Notes under the pieces: generated by a model
Told to the model about the DNA's origin: nothing
The model's input: only the letters and a program-made list of their open reading frames with translations
Database searches by the model: none
Shown: positions 3,576 to 54,780 of the stretch, one piece after another
Position numbering within the stretch: the first letter of the stretch is position 1
Layout of the letters: each line of letters opens with the position of its first letter
Virus record (IMG/VR): IMGVR_UViG_3300031539_000004
Location: 1 to 64,000 of that record
DNA: 64,000 nucleotides
Reading direction: 5' to 3' (one strand)
Source of the DNA: a virus
Position numbers and translations under genes: made by a program

Positions 3576-3595
3576 GAAGCCGCCAGCGGGCGAGC

Positions 3596-3629
3596 CCTCG
3601 GTGTAGTGTCCCGAACTACTCCACCGAGG
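3596..3629 (+). promoter_or_regulatory. Hairpin overlapping an operator-like site before the VUT gene
   Basis: CCTCGGTG (3596-3603) pairs with CACCGAGG (3622-3629). Nested inside is TGTAG-N9-CTACT (3602-3620), a one-mismatch copy of the recurrent palindrome. It sits 10 nt before the ATG at 3639, with a GGGGGAA purine run as the likely ribosome-binding site. Either a terminator for the small genes or an operator controlling the next operon. Confidence 0.5.
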
Positions 3630-3638
3630 GGGGAACCC

Positions 3639-4202
3639 ATGACCAAGAGGACCATCGCCGGGTGGGCAGCCTTCGCTGCTTTCGTCGGTACCGTCTACGC
3701 CGCCAACTGGGCGCTCGAGACCTACGAGATCATCGACCTGCCCCTCACCGGGCTGACCGCCCCGGCCGGTGTCTACTTCGCCGGTCTGGCGTTCGGCCTC
3801 CGCGACGTGGTCCACGAGACCCTTGGCCGGCGGTGGGTCGCCCTCGCGATCATCCTCGGCGCTTCGCTCAGCTACGTCATCTCCGACGGGGCCGAGATAC
3901 CCGGCGGGCACGTCACCATCGCCGTCGCCTCGGGTATCGCCTTCCTCCTAAGCGAGCTCGCCGACCTCGCGGTGTACGACCCGCTGCGCGCTCGGCGATG
4001 GTGGGCGGCCGTGATCGCGTCGAACGCTGTTGGGGCCGTGGTCGACTCGGCGCTGTTCCTGTGGCTGGCCTTCGGGTCGCTCAACTTCATCGAGGGCCAG
4101 ATCGTCGGCAAGATCGCCATGATCCTCCCCGTCCTGCCGCTCGTGTGGCTCGCCCGCCGCTACCTGCTCCCCGGGGATGAACGGCCCGGAGAAGCGCAAT
4201 GA
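3639..4202 (+). CDS. yhhQ: VUT/YhhQ-family queuosine-precursor transporter
   Basis: 187-residue inner-membrane protein with about six hydrophobic segments and the family's signature loop GLRDVVHETLGRR after the second segment (about residues 61-73). VUT/YhhQ proteins import 7-deazaguanines such as preQ0, preQ1 or queuine. It is coupled by ATGA to a QueF-like gene, which overlaps a TGT/DpdA-like gene. That context supports import of a precursor for a DNA base modification. The family also occurs outside queuosine metabolism, so the substrate is inferred from context. Confidence 0.8.
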   Translation: MTKRTIAGWAAFAAFVGTVYAANWALETYEIIDLPLTGLTAPAGVYFAGLAFGLRDVVHETLGRRWVALAIILGASLSYVISDGAEIPGGHVTIAVASGIAFLLSELADLAVYDPLRARRWWAAVIASNAVGAVVDSALFLWLAFGSLNFIEGQIVGKIAMILPVLPLVWLARRYLLPGDERPGEAQ

Positions 4203-4555
4203 GCGGCCACTCAGCCCACCCTGTCGCCGGGATGGTGGCCTTCCCTCACGACGGGGTCCAGTTCGAAGTGGCGTGCGAGGCCCTCTGCCCCTTCGCCGAC
4301 GAGACCGACCGCCACGCTCTCGTCATCGAGATCGCTGGTGGTTCGGGAACCATCGAGGCCGGGTCTCTGGCCGACTACCTCGCCAGCTACGCCGACACCA
4401 AGATCTCGGCCGAAGATCTGGTCGTCGCCGTCGCGAACGAGATCGCGGCGCAGCTCGAGGAGGATCTCGGTGCGCCCCCCGGGCTGGTCACGGTCACCAC
4501 CACCGTCACGGTCGCGGAAGGGCGGGTGAAGCTCACGGCGGTGTCCTGCCAGTGA
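4199..4555 (+). CDS. QueF-like T-fold enzyme (short, QueF-L type)
   Basis: 118 residues. The QueF catalytic pattern is visible: Cys30 in ALCPFADETD, Asp37 exactly seven residues on (as in CPVTGQPD of QueF), and Glu53 in TIEAGSLADYL where QueF has an ES motif. The lysines of the QueF NADPH motif are absent and the protein is shorter than unimodular QueF (about 150 aa). Both features fit archaeal-type QueF-like amidinotransferases, which convert preQ0 to the archaeosine base, rather than the NADPH-dependent nitrile reductase. Overlaps both neighbours by 4 nt. Assignment rests on motif spacing and context. Confidence 0.6.
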   Translation: MSGHSAHPVAGMVAFPHDGVQFEVACEALCPFADETDRHALVIEIAGGSGTIEAGSLADYLASYADTKISAEDLVVAVANEIAAQLEEDLGAPPGLVTVTTTVTVAEGRVKLTAVSCQ

Positions 4556-5190
4556 TCTACCTGACCACCGGGAACACTCAGGCGCTGAAGGCCGGCATCG
4601 AAGCTCACCCCGACCTCCTCGGGCTGCTCGTCACCCCCCGCACCTATCGGCGAGCCGGTCATCCTGTGGATAGGTGGACGTGGGCGGCTGACAACGACTG
4701 CTTCAATGCCGGCGACGAGTTCAACCGCGACGCCTGGCTGAGCTGGCTTGACCGGATGACCCCCGCCGCCCGCGACCGGTGTCTCTTCGCCGTCGCCCCG
4801 GACGTGGTGGGCGACTGGTCGGCGACCCTCGAGCGGTCCCTCCCCGAGCTCGGCGAGGTGCGCTCCCTCGGCTACCGGGCCGCGCTGGTCCTCCAAGACG
4901 GCCTCACCGGCCCCGACGAGGTCCCGTGGTCCGAGGTGGACGCCCTGTTCGTCGGCGGCACCGACGACTTCAAACTGAGCGCCGAGGCGGCCGCTGTGGT
5001 GGCCGTGGGCGCGGCCCGAGGGTTGTGGGTCCACATGGGCCGGGTGAACAGCCGACGCCGAACCTTGGCCGCCGCCCGGATGGGCTGTGTTTCGGTCGAC
5101 GGGACCCACCTCGTATTCGAAGGCCCGAGCGCCGTACCGACCGTTCTCGGGTGGGCGCGCGAGGCGACGAACCAAGGTCGCCTGTTCTGA
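4552..5190 (+). CDS. TGT/DpdA-like transglycosylase (7-deazaguanine insertion)
   Basis: 212 residues from a GTG overlapping the upstream TGA. Motifs match tRNA-guanine transglycosylase order: Asp47 in WAADNDCF (DSGGFQ site), Gln115 in ALVLQDG (GIVQGG), Gly135-Gly136 in FVGGTDDFK (AIGG), MGRVN at 162-166 (YLMGVG), and Asp183 in VSVDGTHL where TGT has its nucleophile. This short form lacks the tRNA-binding C-terminal domain. It resembles phage DpdA-like proteins that exchange guanine in DNA for a 7-deazaguanine. The linked transporter and QueF-like gene support that role. Substrate (DNA or tRNA) is not proven by sequence. Confidence 0.65.
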   Translation: MIYLTTGNTQALKAGIEAHPDLLGLLVTPRTYRRAGHPVDRWTWAADNDCFNAGDEFNRDAWLSWLDRMTPAARDRCLFAVAPDVVGDWSATLERSLPELGEVRSLGYRAALVLQDGLTGPDEVPWSEVDALFVGGTDDFKLSAEAAAVVAVGAARGLWVHMGRVNSRRRTLAAARMGCVSVDGTHLVFEGPSAVPTVLGWAREATNQGRLF

Positions 5191-5217: not shown

Positions 5218-6399
5218 GTGGCTTCCCCAACGACCGGACCCTGCGAGGAGTGGACCACCCCCGACGAGGTGCGCGCCTGCTGCGTCGGCCTCGACCCCGC
5301 CTACGACCTCACGCAGGCGATCCAGTGGGCGACCGTCATCCTGTGGCGCAAGTCAGGCCGCCGGTTCCACGGCCTCTGCAACCGGACCATCTACCCGTGC
5401 ATGGGCGACAACTGCGGGTGCTGCGGAGCCGGGTGGGGCGGCAACACCGCTGGCGACTGGCAGTGGGGCTACGCCGGGTACCCCGGCTTCGGCGGCTGGA
5501 ACGGCGGCTCCGGGTTCTCCGGGGGCGCGTTCCCCTACGCCGGCGGGTTCGTGAACGTCGGGTCCTGCGACCGGACGTGCAAGCTCAACTGCGTCGAGGT
5601 CCCCGCCCCGATCTCGGGCATCAACGAGATCATCATCAACGGCCAGGTGCTCGACCCGGGCCTCTACATGATCACCGGGTTCGACAAGATCTGCCGGGCC
5701 GACGGCGGGTTCTGGCCGTGTAGCAACGACCTCACCTGCCTCCCTCAGCCGTCGATCATCGAGCTGACCGTCGACGCGACCGCCGGCCTCTACGAGATCA
5801 ACGTCACCACCGACGCCGGAACCGAGACGACCGCCGTGTTCGCCACCGACGCCGCGGCCGTGGTCGAAGCGGCGCTCGAGGCGCTCCCCAACGTCGGCGT
5901 CGGGAACGTGGTCGTAGCTGGCGGGCCGGGCGACGCCGGCGGAACCACCCCCTACCTGATCGAGTTCCCCCGCGAGCTCGGGCGCGTCACGATCACCACG
6001 ACCGACGTGACCCTCGCCGGCGGGGCCTCGACCGCCTCGCCCGTCATCCAACAGCTCGGCTGCACGGGTGAAGGCTCCTGGCAGATCGACTACCAGTTCG
6101 GGCGCGACGTACCAGCCGACGCCCGCTTCATGGCATCGATCCTCGCCTGCCAGATCGCGCTCAACCGGTGCGGCGGCGAGGGTTGCATCCTCCCGCAACG
6201 GTTGAAGGAGATCACCCGCCAAGGCGTCGCGATGGCGTTCGCCGACCCGCTCGAGTTCATCGACAAGGGCGAGGTGGGGATCTACGAGATCGACCTGTGG
6301 CTCGCCGACGTGAACCCGGCGAAGCTCCAGCGCCGCGCCCGAGTCCACCGCGCCGACCAGTACCAACGGTCGTCGCCGCCCCGGAACATCACCGGCTGA
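5218..6399 (+). CDS. Head-to-tail connector-like protein with cysteine/glycine insertion
   Basis: 393 residues from GTG 5218. A TAGCAT box ends 7 nt before it, and AGGAG overlaps that gap. The N-terminal 50 residues (WTTPDEVRACCVGLDPAYD, WATVILWRKSGRRF) and the C-terminal 60 resemble actinophage head-tail adaptors. Between them lies a CMGDNCGCCG motif, then a Gly/Trp/Tyr-rich stretch, then a beta domain at about residues 180-280. The insertion is atypical and might be surface exposed. First gene of the resumed structural block. Exact connector class uncertain. Confidence 0.55.
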   Translation: MASPTTGPCEEWTTPDEVRACCVGLDPAYDLTQAIQWATVILWRKSGRRFHGLCNRTIYPCMGDNCGCCGAGWGGNTAGDWQWGYAGYPGFGGWNGGSGFSGGAFPYAGGFVNVGSCDRTCKLNCVEVPAPISGINEIIINGQVLDPGLYMITGFDKICRADGGFWPCSNDLTCLPQPSIIELTVDATAGLYEINVTTDAGTETTAVFATDAAAVVEAALEALPNVGVGNVVVAGGPGDAGGTTPYLIEFPRELGRVTITTTDVTLAGGASTASPVIQQLGCTGEGSWQIDYQFGRDVPADARFMASILACQIALNRCGGEGCILPQRLKEITRQGVAMAFADPLEFIDKGEVGIYEIDLWLADVNPAKLQRRARVHRADQYQRSSPPRNITG

Positions 6400-42734: not shown

Positions 42735-42803
42735 GCCCTCGCCGACTGGATCGGTCCCGGTTTCCTAAACCTGGGGTTGCAGGTTCGACTCCTGCCGGGG
42801 GCG
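42735..42803 (+). tRNA. Possible tRNA-Arg(CCU), short D arm
   Basis: Acceptor GCCCTCG (42735-42741) pairs with CGGGGGC (42796-42802). T arm GCAGG-TTCGACT-CCTGC is perfect. Anticodon loop TTCCTAA with CCT at 42764-42766 sits on a 5-bp stem with one mismatch. The D arm (GAC-TGGATCG-GTC) is short, giving 69 nt. The 3' CCA is not encoded. Good T arm and acceptor, but atypical D arm and no base 26, so a decayed or unusual tRNA. Confidence 0.45.
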
Positions 42804-42830
42804 CTTGACACGATCCGTACCCTGCCAAGG

Positions 42831-43740: not shown

Positions 43741-45045
43741 TCAGAAGTCGGTGTCGATCGCCGACGGGAACAGCTCGCCGGTCTCGGCGTTCACTACCTC
43801 GAGGCCCGAGTGGTCGATGTATCGCTGGCACATCATGTCGACCCACTTCGGTTCCAGCTCCATGAGCGCGGCCCGCCGGCCCGTCTTGTGCGCGGCGATG
43901 AGCAGCGACCCGGACCCGCCGAACGGGTCGTAGGCGAGCTCGCCCGAGTGGAGGTGGTTCTCGAGCGGTTGGACGTAGATGGAGACCGGCTTCTGCGTCG
44001 GGTGGGCGGTCTTGTCGTCGGTCTTCGATGACATGATGTGCTTCGGCGAGGGGGCCTCCCACACCGTCGACCGGTTGCGATCGACGTGGAACGGGACGGT
44101 GCGGCCCTTCTTGCGGGCGAACCAGGCGGGCTCGTGCTGCCAGTGGTAGTAGCTGCGGCCGAGCGAGAACCGTTGCTTGACCCACACGATCTGCTGGAGG
44201 ATCTCGTACCCGGCGTCCTCGAGGCCTTCCCACACGACGTGCGCGTGGCTGGCGGCGTGCCAGACGAGGGCGATGGTGGCGTCGCTGAGCCGGTACGCCT
44301 CACGCCAGTCGTCCTCGTCGTCGTTCGCGACGTGATCGGTGGACCCGGGGGCGAGCTGGGGGAGCGCGGCGTCGCGCCAGGTGTGGTCCAGTTCGATGCC
44401 GTAAGGCGGGTCGGTGAGCATGGCGACCGGGCGCTCGCCGTCGAGGAGGCGGGCCACGTCGGCGGCGTCGGTGCTCGAGCCGCAGAGGAGCCGGTGTTCA
44501 CCGCCGAGGATCCACAGGTCGCCGAGCTTGGTCGTCGGGATGGTGGGCGCGGCGGGGACCGCGTCCTCGTCGCCCTGGCCGGCCCGGAACCCGTTCACCT
44601 TGTAGAGCAGGTCGGCGAGGTCTTCGTCGGCGAACCCGGTGCCGATGAGCGAGTCGGCGTCGGCGATGTCTTTCAGGATGCGGGCGAGGACCGGGTCGTC
44701 GTAGGTCGCGAGGTCGGAGGTCCGGTTGTCGGCGACGAGGATCTTGGCGGCTCGCACGTCGTCTACGTCGAGCCAGATGACCGGGACCTCCTTGAGGCCG
44801 ACCCGGCGGGCGGCGAGGTACCGGTGGTTCCCGGCGAGGATGCGGCCCTTGGCGCGGTCGCCTCGGGGCGTCTGGCAGACGAGCGGGGCGGTGAACCCGT
44901 TCTCGCGGATCGACTCGGCGATGACTTCGACGTTCCCTTCGCGCGGGTTGTCGGGGTGCTGCTCGAGGGCGTCGAGGTTCACGAAGGCCAGCTCGTACCC
45001 TTCGGCCAGGGAGTCGGCGAGCTCGGTGGGGATCGTGTCGGTCAT
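43741..45045 (-). CDS. ParB-like N-domain fused to DNA adenine/cytosine methyltransferase
   Basis: 434 residues, minus strand. ATG 45045 is preferred over an upstream extension: it is 8 nt from a TACCCT box and starts the conserved domain. Residues about 18-130 form a ParB/Spo0J-type domain (VNLDALEQHPDNPREGNVEV, ILAGNHRYLAARRVG). The rest is a beta-type amino-methyltransferase: catalytic TDPPYGIEL before the SAM motif AYDPFGGSGSLLIAAH, with a target-recognition region between. ParB-methylase fusions are widespread in phages; they probably protect phage DNA. Confidence 0.9.
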   Translation of the reverse strand: MTDTIPTELADSLAEGYELAFVNLDALEQHPDNPREGNVEVIAESIRENGFTAPLVCQTPRGDRAKGRILAGNHRYLAARRVGLKEVPVIWLDVDDVRAAKILVADNRTSDLATYDDPVLARILKDIADADSLIGTGFADEDLADLLYKVNGFRAGQGDEDAVPAAPTIPTTKLGDLWILGGEHRLLCGSSTDAADVARLLDGERPVAMLTDPPYGIELDHTWRDAALPQLAPGSTDHVANDDEDDWREAYRLSDATIALVWHAASHAHVVWEGLEDAGYEILQQIVWVKQRFSLGRSYYHWQHEPAWFARKKGRTVPFHVDRNRSTVWEAPSPKHIMSSKTDDKTAHPTQKPVSIYVQPLENHLHSGELAYDPFGGSGSLLIAAHKTGRRAALMELEPKWVDMMCQRYIDHSGLEVVNAETGELFPSAIDTDF

Positions 45046-45073
45046 GGCCGTCGAGGGTACACGGGGCGGTTGG

Positions 45074-45102
45074 TTGCGTAGCCGATCGGGTGACGGTACG
45101 GT
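45074..45102 (+). promoter_or_regulatory. Promoter overlapping a degenerate palindrome
   Basis: -35 TTGCGT (45074-45079), 17 bp, -10 TACGGT (45097-45102). The left arm CGTAG is kept (45077-45081), the right arm is TGACG. Drives 45132 with a 25-nt leader and AGGAG. Divergent from the ParB-methylase promoter 15 bp away. Confidence 0.65.
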
Positions 45103-45131
45103 CCGACGGCGGCGCGACAGGAGGAGACCGA

Positions 45132-45380
45132 ATGGCTCGAAGTGAAGCGGCACCGAGGCCCGACCCGCCGGCCCAAGAGGTCGGCTTGTATCGGGCGTTC
45201 GATCGCTGGGGGAACGTGATATGGGAGTGCCCGGGGTTCGTGGCGGGGCGGTCGAAGGTCCCGGCGGGGTTCAGCGTGGTGATGGCGGCGATGACGATCA
45301 CCGGTCCCCGAGGGAAGGTGCTCCGCAAGTGGGACCCGTGGGGGGCGCTCGAGCTGGCCCGCAAGCTGGCCGCCGAGTAG
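45132..45380 (+). CDS. Small hypothetical protein, 82 aa
   Basis: GAGGAG before the ATG. Trp-rich alpha/beta (VGLYRAFDRWGNVIWECPGF, GKVLRKWDPWGALELARKL). No family recognised. Divergently transcribed from the methyltransferase gene, so a regulatory link is possible but unproven. Confidence 0.6.
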   Translation: MARSEAAPRPDPPAQEVGLYRAFDRWGNVIWECPGFVAGRSKVPAGFSVVMAAMTITGPRGKVLRKWDPWGALELARKLAAE

Positions 45381-53925: not shown

Positions 53926-54751
53926 CGCTGCGGATCTTCTGATCGCTGGGGCTGGGGCTGCCTCCACCGTCGGCGCGTACTGGTGGGGCCGAGCTCGGGG
54001 GAGGGCGCTCGAGCGGGGCGTCAAGGAGTCGAGCGGGCATCACCCGACGCACGGCGCTGAGGTGGGCGAGGAGGTCGCTGACGGCGACGAGGTGGAGCTG
54101 GAGCCGCTCACCGAGGACGAGGCCGCTGAGGCCCGCCAGGCGATCGCTGACGGCGAGGTGGGCCTGACTCTGGACGACGTGGCCGAGCAGGTCGACGCGT
54201 CGGAGGCGAGGCCGGCCGAGGAGGCGAGGCCCGACGCGGAGCTCCCCCCGATCGGCGCGGCGTCGCCCGCGGCGGAGGTGGTCACCGAGTCGTTGGGTGA
54301 GGTGGTCGCAGAGGCCGAGCGCGACGAGGTGGCCGACGAACCCGAGATGGAGGACGTGACGCCGATCGTGGTCACCGGGCCGCTCGAGCTGCTCGAGGCC
54401 GTCGAGGTGGTCGAGTTACCCGACGAACCCGAGGTGACGACCGAGGAGGTCGTGGTCGAGGTCGATGCGGCCGAGACGGTCGCCGAGCTGACCAGGGCTG
54501 CCCGGCTCGCCGCGGCGTTGGGCGCGGACGTGATGCTCCCCGCCGAGGAGGTCGAGGTCACGCCGACCGGGACCCCGAAGCGGATCCTGCCGGTGAAGCG
54601 GGCGACCAAGCCCGAGGCCGAGGCCGTGGTCGAGGCGATACCGGACCCGGAACCCGAGGCCCCGCCCGCGCCCCGTGAGGCCCCGCATGTCGAGGTCGGA
54701 TCGCTCGACCCTTCGACTGCACCGCCGTTCAAGAAGTGGAACAAACCGTAG
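53915..54751 (+). CDS. Membrane-anchored acidic protein, 278 aa
   Basis: ATG 53915 with a TACGGT box 5 nt upstream (53918 is an alternative). An N-terminal hydrophobic anchor (residues 3-22, DAADLLIAGAGAASTVGAYW), short basic patch, then about 240 residues dominated by Glu, Ala and Val (EEVADGDEVELEPLTEDEAA). Ends with PPFKKWNKP. Disordered acidic tether on the membrane; role unknown. Confidence 0.6.
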   Translation: MMIDAADLLIAGAGAASTVGAYWWGRARGRALERGVKESSGHHPTHGAEVGEEVADGDEVELEPLTEDEAAEARQAIADGEVGLTLDDVAEQVDASEARPAEEARPDAELPPIGAASPAAEVVTESLGEVVAEAERDEVADEPEMEDVTPIVVTGPLELLEAVEVVELPDEPEVTTEEVVVEVDAAETVAELTRAARLAAALGADVMLPAEEVEVTPTGTPKRILPVKRATKPEAEAVVEAIPDPEPEAPPAPREAPHVEVGSLDPSTAPPFKKWNKP

Positions 54752-54772
54752 CGTCGTCGGATCGGCTACAGT
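54752..54772 (+). promoter_or_regulatory. Degenerate palindrome and -10 TACAGT
   Basis: CGTCG-N9-CTACA (54752-54770), with another GTAG 14 nt before the right arm. -10 TACAGT (54767-54772) lies 8 nt before ATG 54781. Confidence 0.5.
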
Positions 54773-54780
54773 CCCCGGCG

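Follow-up and report, generated by a model that had tools for sequence, protein, structure and literature searches.

The window analyzed here, which covers the opening 64 kb of an IMG/VR virus record of 128,695 bases (G+C content 69%), carries three co-directional open reading frames that lie among virion genes and are coupled by four-base overlaps, ATGA at 4199–4202 and GTGA at 4552–4555. This arrangement had been described in an initial annotation made from the letters alone, together with a location between the major tail gene and the head-tail connector genes, which the PHROG matches of the flanking genes bear out. The features of the locus are listed below.

1962–2756, + strand: major tail protein, bordering the inserted segment on the left (phrog_792, 2.7e-23)
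3595–3630, + strand: inverted repeat directly 5′ of the VUT ribosome-binding site (RNA fold)
3639–4202, + strand: gene 1, VUT/YhhQ-family (COG1738, queuosine precursor transporter) membrane protein, 187 aa (Pfam, PHROG)
4199–4555, + strand: gene 2, QueF-Like-type T-fold protein, 118 aa (family profile, AF2/Foldseek)
4552–5190, + strand: gene 3, short DpdA-like transglycosylase, PHROG 15826, 212 aa (PHROG, AF2, hhalign)
5218–6399, + strand: head-to-tail adaptor, bordering the inserted segment on the right (phrog_783, 1.3e-42)

The major tail gene directly adjoins the head-to-tail adaptor gene in DSL-LC01 (129 kb) and Pumpernickel (186 kb), whereas in the window about 2.4 kb lie between them, occupied by a few small open reading frames and the cassette. 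Because of this difference, the cassette is an insertion in the virion gene block. A second contig with the same cassette differs by a single mismatch in 8,636 bases, at position 1968 and thus outside the cassette; this second copy corroborates the assembly without representing a separate lineage. The 128,695-base record has no end repeats and may be incomplete.

An operator-like site had also been proposed upstream of the cassette, and an inverted repeat of 9+4 base pairs is indeed present at 3595–3630. As RNA it is predicted to fold with −22.1 kcal/mol (z −2.1), and it overlaps the approach to the VUT ribosome-binding site; it could be an operator or an RNA hairpin acting on translation. The palindrome has no further copies within the 64-kb window, an Rfam search for a riboswitch upstream of the cassette gave no meaningful match, and neither a sigma-70-like promoter nor a terminator was found there. 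The VUT frame most likely starts at ATG 3639, 3′ of the purine-rich stretch GAGGGGGGAA, with GTG 3606 as a possible alternative.

Protein families of the cassette

The family first proposed for gene 1 stands. Its product has several hydrophobic segments and matches Pfam Vut_1 (PF02592) at 4.1e-13 (50.4 bits against a cut-off of 27.2) and PHROG 4899 at 2.8e-37, and on these profile matches its place in the VUT/YhhQ family is secure. The substrate is not assured, because the equivalog-level models score under their cut-offs, with 1.7e-9 and 37.8 bits for TIGR00697 (queuosine precursor transporter; cut-off 50.95) and 33.4 bits for the preQ0/preQ1 transporter model (cut-off 252). In Escherichia coli, preQ0 transport requires YhhQ, and COG1738 as a family is not homogeneous in substrate (PMC5372724).

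Gene 2 had been called QueF-like, of which the T-fold is retained, and by profile and fold the protein lies nearer to QueF-Like than to the nitrile-reductase QueF. The single sequence matches Pfam QueF (0.004) and TIGR03139 (4.6e-5) weakly, both under cut-off. When a six-member family alignment was compared with PDB chains, the best match, at 1.7e-6 and over almost the whole length, was the archaeosine synthase QueF-Like 5JYX, and QueF nitrile reductases ranked after it. The AlphaFold2 model is a T-fold of moderate confidence (pLDDT 78), for which Foldseek ranks QueF-Like 5JYX/5K0P highest (TM 0.85 on target), followed by QueF and then GTP cyclohydrolase. Single-sequence scans of viral contigs for more T-fold relatives recovered only the queries themselves.

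Across the family alignment the thioimide cysteine (C30) and the aspartate D37 are invariant, and E53 and E72 are conserved. QueF carries an NADPH motif of the form E(S/L)K(S/A)-h-K. This motif is missing from gene 2, where EAGSLA stands in the window and ELHSLR in relatives, and is retained as ESKSLKLYL in Rinkes gp2, a phage QueF from a de novo cassette. The window protein departs from its own family as well. In the HE pair that opens the second helix, E72 is kept and the histidine is replaced by alanine, which turns the SHE motif of the other six aligned members into S-A-E, and the histidine of the ELHSL motif kept by relatives is also lost (E-A-G-S-L). Since two histidines kept by its relatives are gone, the chemistry of the window protein may be altered and its product is uncertain.

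Gene 3 starts at GTG 4552 and matches PHROG 15826 at 6.7e-53; members of this PHROG are annotated as DpdA-like in SEA-PHAGES records. The protein had been called TGT/DpdA-like, and the two halves of that call fared differently, in that the sequence profile of the family connects it to phage DpdA (DpdA1) and not to E. coli TGT. The barrel on which the call depended is present in the AlphaFold2 model, a TIM barrel with pLDDT 95.9. Foldseek matches this model to many TGT entries of the PDB at TM 0.60, with other TIM barrels scoring similarly, and among viral models the best-named matches are phage queuine tRNA-ribosyltransferases, that is, DpdA. A stronger test of kinship than the fold search is the profile-profile comparison, in which the gene 3 family aligned by hhalign with nine canonical phage DpdA1 proteins at a probability of 89.8 and a score of 49.9, against 13.5 for a reversed profile and 23.2 for the best of 40 column shuffles. 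In this alignment D72, D114, G162-G163, H196 and D215 of DpdA (9g numbering) correspond to D47, D84, G135-G136, H161 and D183 of gene 3, which are conserved among 53 relatives; Q115 is a further conserved position.

With 212 residues, gene 3 falls short of the roughly 290–356 residues of the canonical DpdA proteins compared and of their size and C-terminal region. On the profile evidence we read it as belonging to a short sister family of DpdA1, separate as PHROG 15826, rather than as a canonical member. The fold and the catalytic-residue pattern are established by model and alignment, from which transglycosylase activity with DNA as its target would be expected. If this reading is true, the short barrel is the smallest DNA transglycosylase known to us. 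Gene 3 has no match to TGT families in Pfam (E≤1) or NCBIfam, the family profile does not match E. coli TGT alone, and the TGT zinc-site cysteine cluster (CxCxxC) is missing from the sequence. A family sequence search of the PDB returned chance matches only. DpdA2 was considered as an identity for gene 3 and rejected, there being no detectable similarity to the 464-residue DpdA2 of phage nt-1. A scan of the viral contigs with the canonical DpdA of Rinkes gave no match.

Distribution and linkage of the genes

Viral contigs scanned with gene 3 as the query yielded 80 loci, which form 49 clusters at 80% identity. In 42 of these clusters a VUT gene is next to the short DpdA-like gene, upstream in 36 and downstream in 6, and the two reading frames often overlap. 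The same adjacency is found in 20 of 47 clusters from bacterial genomes, mostly Actinomycetota, the other 27 having no VUT neighbor. Among annotated phages, 15 of the 24 records with a short DpdA-like gene also have VUT, whereas 29 of 50,697 records overall are VUT-positive. The M. smegmatis phages Bhagsy and Majeke are examples with the two-gene pair. About seven cassettes have the T-fold gene between the two, namely those of the window, of Arthrobacter phage Aoka and of loci L018, L027, L028, L093 and L099; at locus L019 the T-fold gene is present and no VUT was recognized. A tree of 91 relatives places the window on a long branch; on this tree the T-fold label must change at least five times, and well-supported branches force two of these changes. 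The VUT/DpdA-like core is widespread, and the T-fold gene joins it now and then as a third member.

VUT is also paired with other transglycosylase-like proteins. One is the 274-residue TGT-like protein of phiLM21 (gp25-26), and others form a second TGT-like family of 226–230 residues in Pam5, RHph_N3_2 and RHph_X2_30; in a small direct search the phiLM21 protein and this family matched the DpdA1 profile at 6e-9 to 6e-14. Repeated pairing of VUT with different transglycosylases is the best evidence that the transporter feeds the transglycosylase. The 226–230-residue proteins begin with IHYHG and occur in Rhizobium and Pseudanabaena phages (L174, Pam5_30; L175, EVB98_054; L177, 229 residues).

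The initial annotation had seen no preQ0 synthesis genes, and this holds for the whole 128,695-base record, in which family searches for QueC, PTPS/QueD, FolE and radical-SAM proteins were empty. Each of these searches matched in 9–14 of 14 control genomes. Searches of the record with phage QueC, QueD, QueE and FolE by tblastn and phmmer gave chance-level matches only. The salvage reading put forward at the outset draws strong support from this absence and from the pairing of VUT and DpdA-like genes in unrelated phages.

Bacterial genomes that carry the family speak to the fate of the imported base. TGT is absent from 40 of 50 such genomes, and TGT and QueC are both absent from 31; feeding of host tRNA modification is unlikely in genomes where TGT is missing. 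A simple rule by which VUT replaces host synthesis was tried and finds no support in these genomes. VUT is not more common where QueC is missing, the trend running against a simple salvage prediction (QueC in 8 of 20 genomes where VUT adjoins the gene and in 5 of 30 where it does not; Fisher p=0.10, in a genome set that mixes prophages and other copies).

Several other occurrences of these families were noted. Arthrobacter phage Sonali (L004) combines the short DpdA-like gene with a canonical DpdA that is accompanied by queC, queD and queE (genes 81 and 87). Streptomyces genomes (L113–L144, L158) hold chromosomal or integrated short DpdA-like copies with conserved neighbors, mostly without VUT, and the neighbors listed for VUT-less copies offered no clear functional lead. 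Mycobacterium phages Techage and Arib1 (H50–H52) have a partial-length VUT match and no DpdA-like match, and perhaps carry decayed cassettes.

A proposed salvage pathway and its alternatives

We consider it probable, from the sequences, the models and analogy with known enzymes, that the cassette serves a salvage-type 7-deazaguanine modification of DNA, with deoxyarchaeosine (dG+) as a possible end product. The phage VUT protein would import a 7-deazaguanine base (most likely preQ0) that the host perhaps does not make, and the short DpdA-like barrel would exchange guanines in phage DNA for the imported base by the mechanism of TGT and DpdA. Import followed by insertion into DNA is the part that we regard as likely. 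The QueF-Like T-fold protein would then attack the 7-cyano group through its conserved cysteine, forming a thioimide. In the weakest step of the scheme, this intermediate would most likely be resolved with ammonia to the formamidine of dG+; ammonia is preferred over reduction because the T-fold protein lacks the NADPH motif. DNA modified in this way would resist host restriction enzymes.

As the final product, dG+ is a tentative choice. Archaeal QueF-Like uses ammonia to turn over preQ0-tRNA and does not turn over free preQ0 (PMC5485725), and the proteins of Dp-1 and HVTV-1 that HHpred called QueF-L gave dPreQ1 and not mainly dG+ (PMC6884629), for which reason we hold dG+ at this level. The T-fold protein could instead make preQ1 by reduction or the ADG amide by hydrolysis, or only bind preQ0 and hand it over, and such an outcome is a serious possibility, if a somewhat doubtful one. 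The loss of the SHE histidine from the window protein points in this direction, as do the dPreQ1 outcome for the Dp-1 and HVTV-1 proteins and the fact that most relatives do without any T-fold gene. However, the NADPH motif that Rinkes keeps is replaced both in the window and in relatives, the thioimide cysteine and aspartate are kept, and the nearest structure is QueF-Like. VUT might also bring in queuine or preQ1 instead of preQ0 for insertion by the DpdA-like protein, which would suit the mixed substrates of COG1738 (PMC5372724) and the two-gene phages, where no later step is required; a neighboring T-fold protein that attacks a nitrile would, however, make sense only with a 7-cyano base, and we regard this variant as unlikely.

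The target of the exchange can be questioned as well. TGTs are tRNA enzymes that turn up in the fold search with gene 3, and archaeal QueF-Like acts on tRNA (PMC5485725), so that the TGT-like protein might place the imported base in host or phage tRNA for the T-fold protein to finish there. Against this stand the match of the gene 3 family to the phage DpdA profile, the DpdA-type proteins among its best-named viral folds, the lack of a TGT match in Pfam (E≤1) and of zinc-site cysteines, and the DNA target of its closest kin with measured function, the DpdA proteins of CAjan and 9g (PMC6884629). A tRNA target is accordingly improbable in our judgment. That the genes are morons lying side by side by accident would fit a segment inserted where relatives have a tight junction, yet 42 of 49 viral clusters hold the same pair, in one order or the other and often with frames that overlap, and we give this explanation very little weight.

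Beyond the window phage, we suggest with some reserve that a large and for the most part unrecognized group of phages may scavenge external 7-deazaguanine through a transporter of their own and a minimal DNA transglycosylase of 200 residues, the chemistry of their genomes depending on what other microbes release, and that a subset including the window phage may convert the base in place by a QueF-Like amidinotransferase to dG+ or to an undescribed base. If true, the restriction resistance of such phages would vary with the supply of a preQ0-like base from neighboring microbes.

Relation to known systems and other genes of the record

The cassette shares a signature transglycosylase of DpdA type with phages that make 7-deazaguanines de novo, such as 9g, CAjan, Rosebush/Calamitous, Rinkes and Finch, and protection from restriction is expected in both cases; it differs in having a transporter instead of folE, queD, queE and queC (PMC6884629). 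A QueF-type protein also stands beside DpdA in Mycobacterium phage Rinkes, where a short QueF with the NADPH motif, related to gene 2, accompanies dpdA-queC-queD-queE-folE. This Rinkes gp2 (L090), annotated as a GTP cyclohydrolase, is encoded between ParB and dpdA, and from its presence dPreQ1 would be expected in the DNA of Rinkes.

It is already known that phage 7-deazaguanine clusters can have a transporter within them or close by. A YhhQ-type preQ0 transporter lies near DNA-modification genes in Enterobacter phage EC151 and Seuratvirus (PMC8310023) and in HCTV-1/16 (PMC8651126), as a VUT/YhhQ-family gene does here, but in EC151 and the haloviruses it accompanies a preQ0 synthesis pathway, whereas the window has only a tightly coupled transglycosylase cassette. 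About 9% of bacterial dpd islands contain YhhQ as well (PMC11888242). A survey in 2019 reported that YhhQ was not correlated with any phage group and that the modification of phages with DpdA only could not be predicted (PMC6884629). For one large group, the coupling of VUT with a minimal DpdA-like protein in many unrelated phages would supply a specific answer, namely that the base is imported, and this answer is testable with isolated phages of M. smegmatis and Arthrobacter.

The closest parallel to the full cassette is in Arthrobacter phage Aoka (ON755180), whose genes 38–40 match the three genes in kind and order, with frames that overlap or almost do, and are annotated as a membrane protein, a hypothetical protein and a DpdA-like protein, respectively. 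The Aoka cassette occupies another genome location, and its T-fold protein retains the ELHS and SHE motifs, unlike that of the window. The Pyrobaculum QueF-Like (5JYX, 5K0P; PMC5485725) shares with gene 2 a unimodular T-fold, the thioimide cysteine and aspartate, the glutamate of the HE pair and the lack of an NADPH motif; identity is about 20%, and the window copy is without the histidine that precedes this glutamate. Another proposed DNA transglycosylase is DpdA2 of Vibrio phage nt-1, reported to lack the conserved histidine that the gene 3 family keeps (PMC6884629). The literature searched gave no description of the VUT/short-DpdA pair or of its three-gene form; an earlier mention is possible. 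A 2023 paper in NAR reportedly defines DpdA3 and DpdA4.

Elsewhere in the record there are two DNA methyltransferase genes, at 54736–56358 of the window and at 64500–66098 of the record (L006 500–2098), and because of these two genes the phage may carry additional DNA modification. In the second of them a ParB-like domain is fused to the methyltransferase. Another ParB-like protein, encoded at 43744–45270 on the − strand of the window, is a relative of the ParB encoded at the head of the de novo DpdA cassette in Rinkes. The sole tRNA found in the window is a tRNA-Arg (CCT) at 42735–42804.
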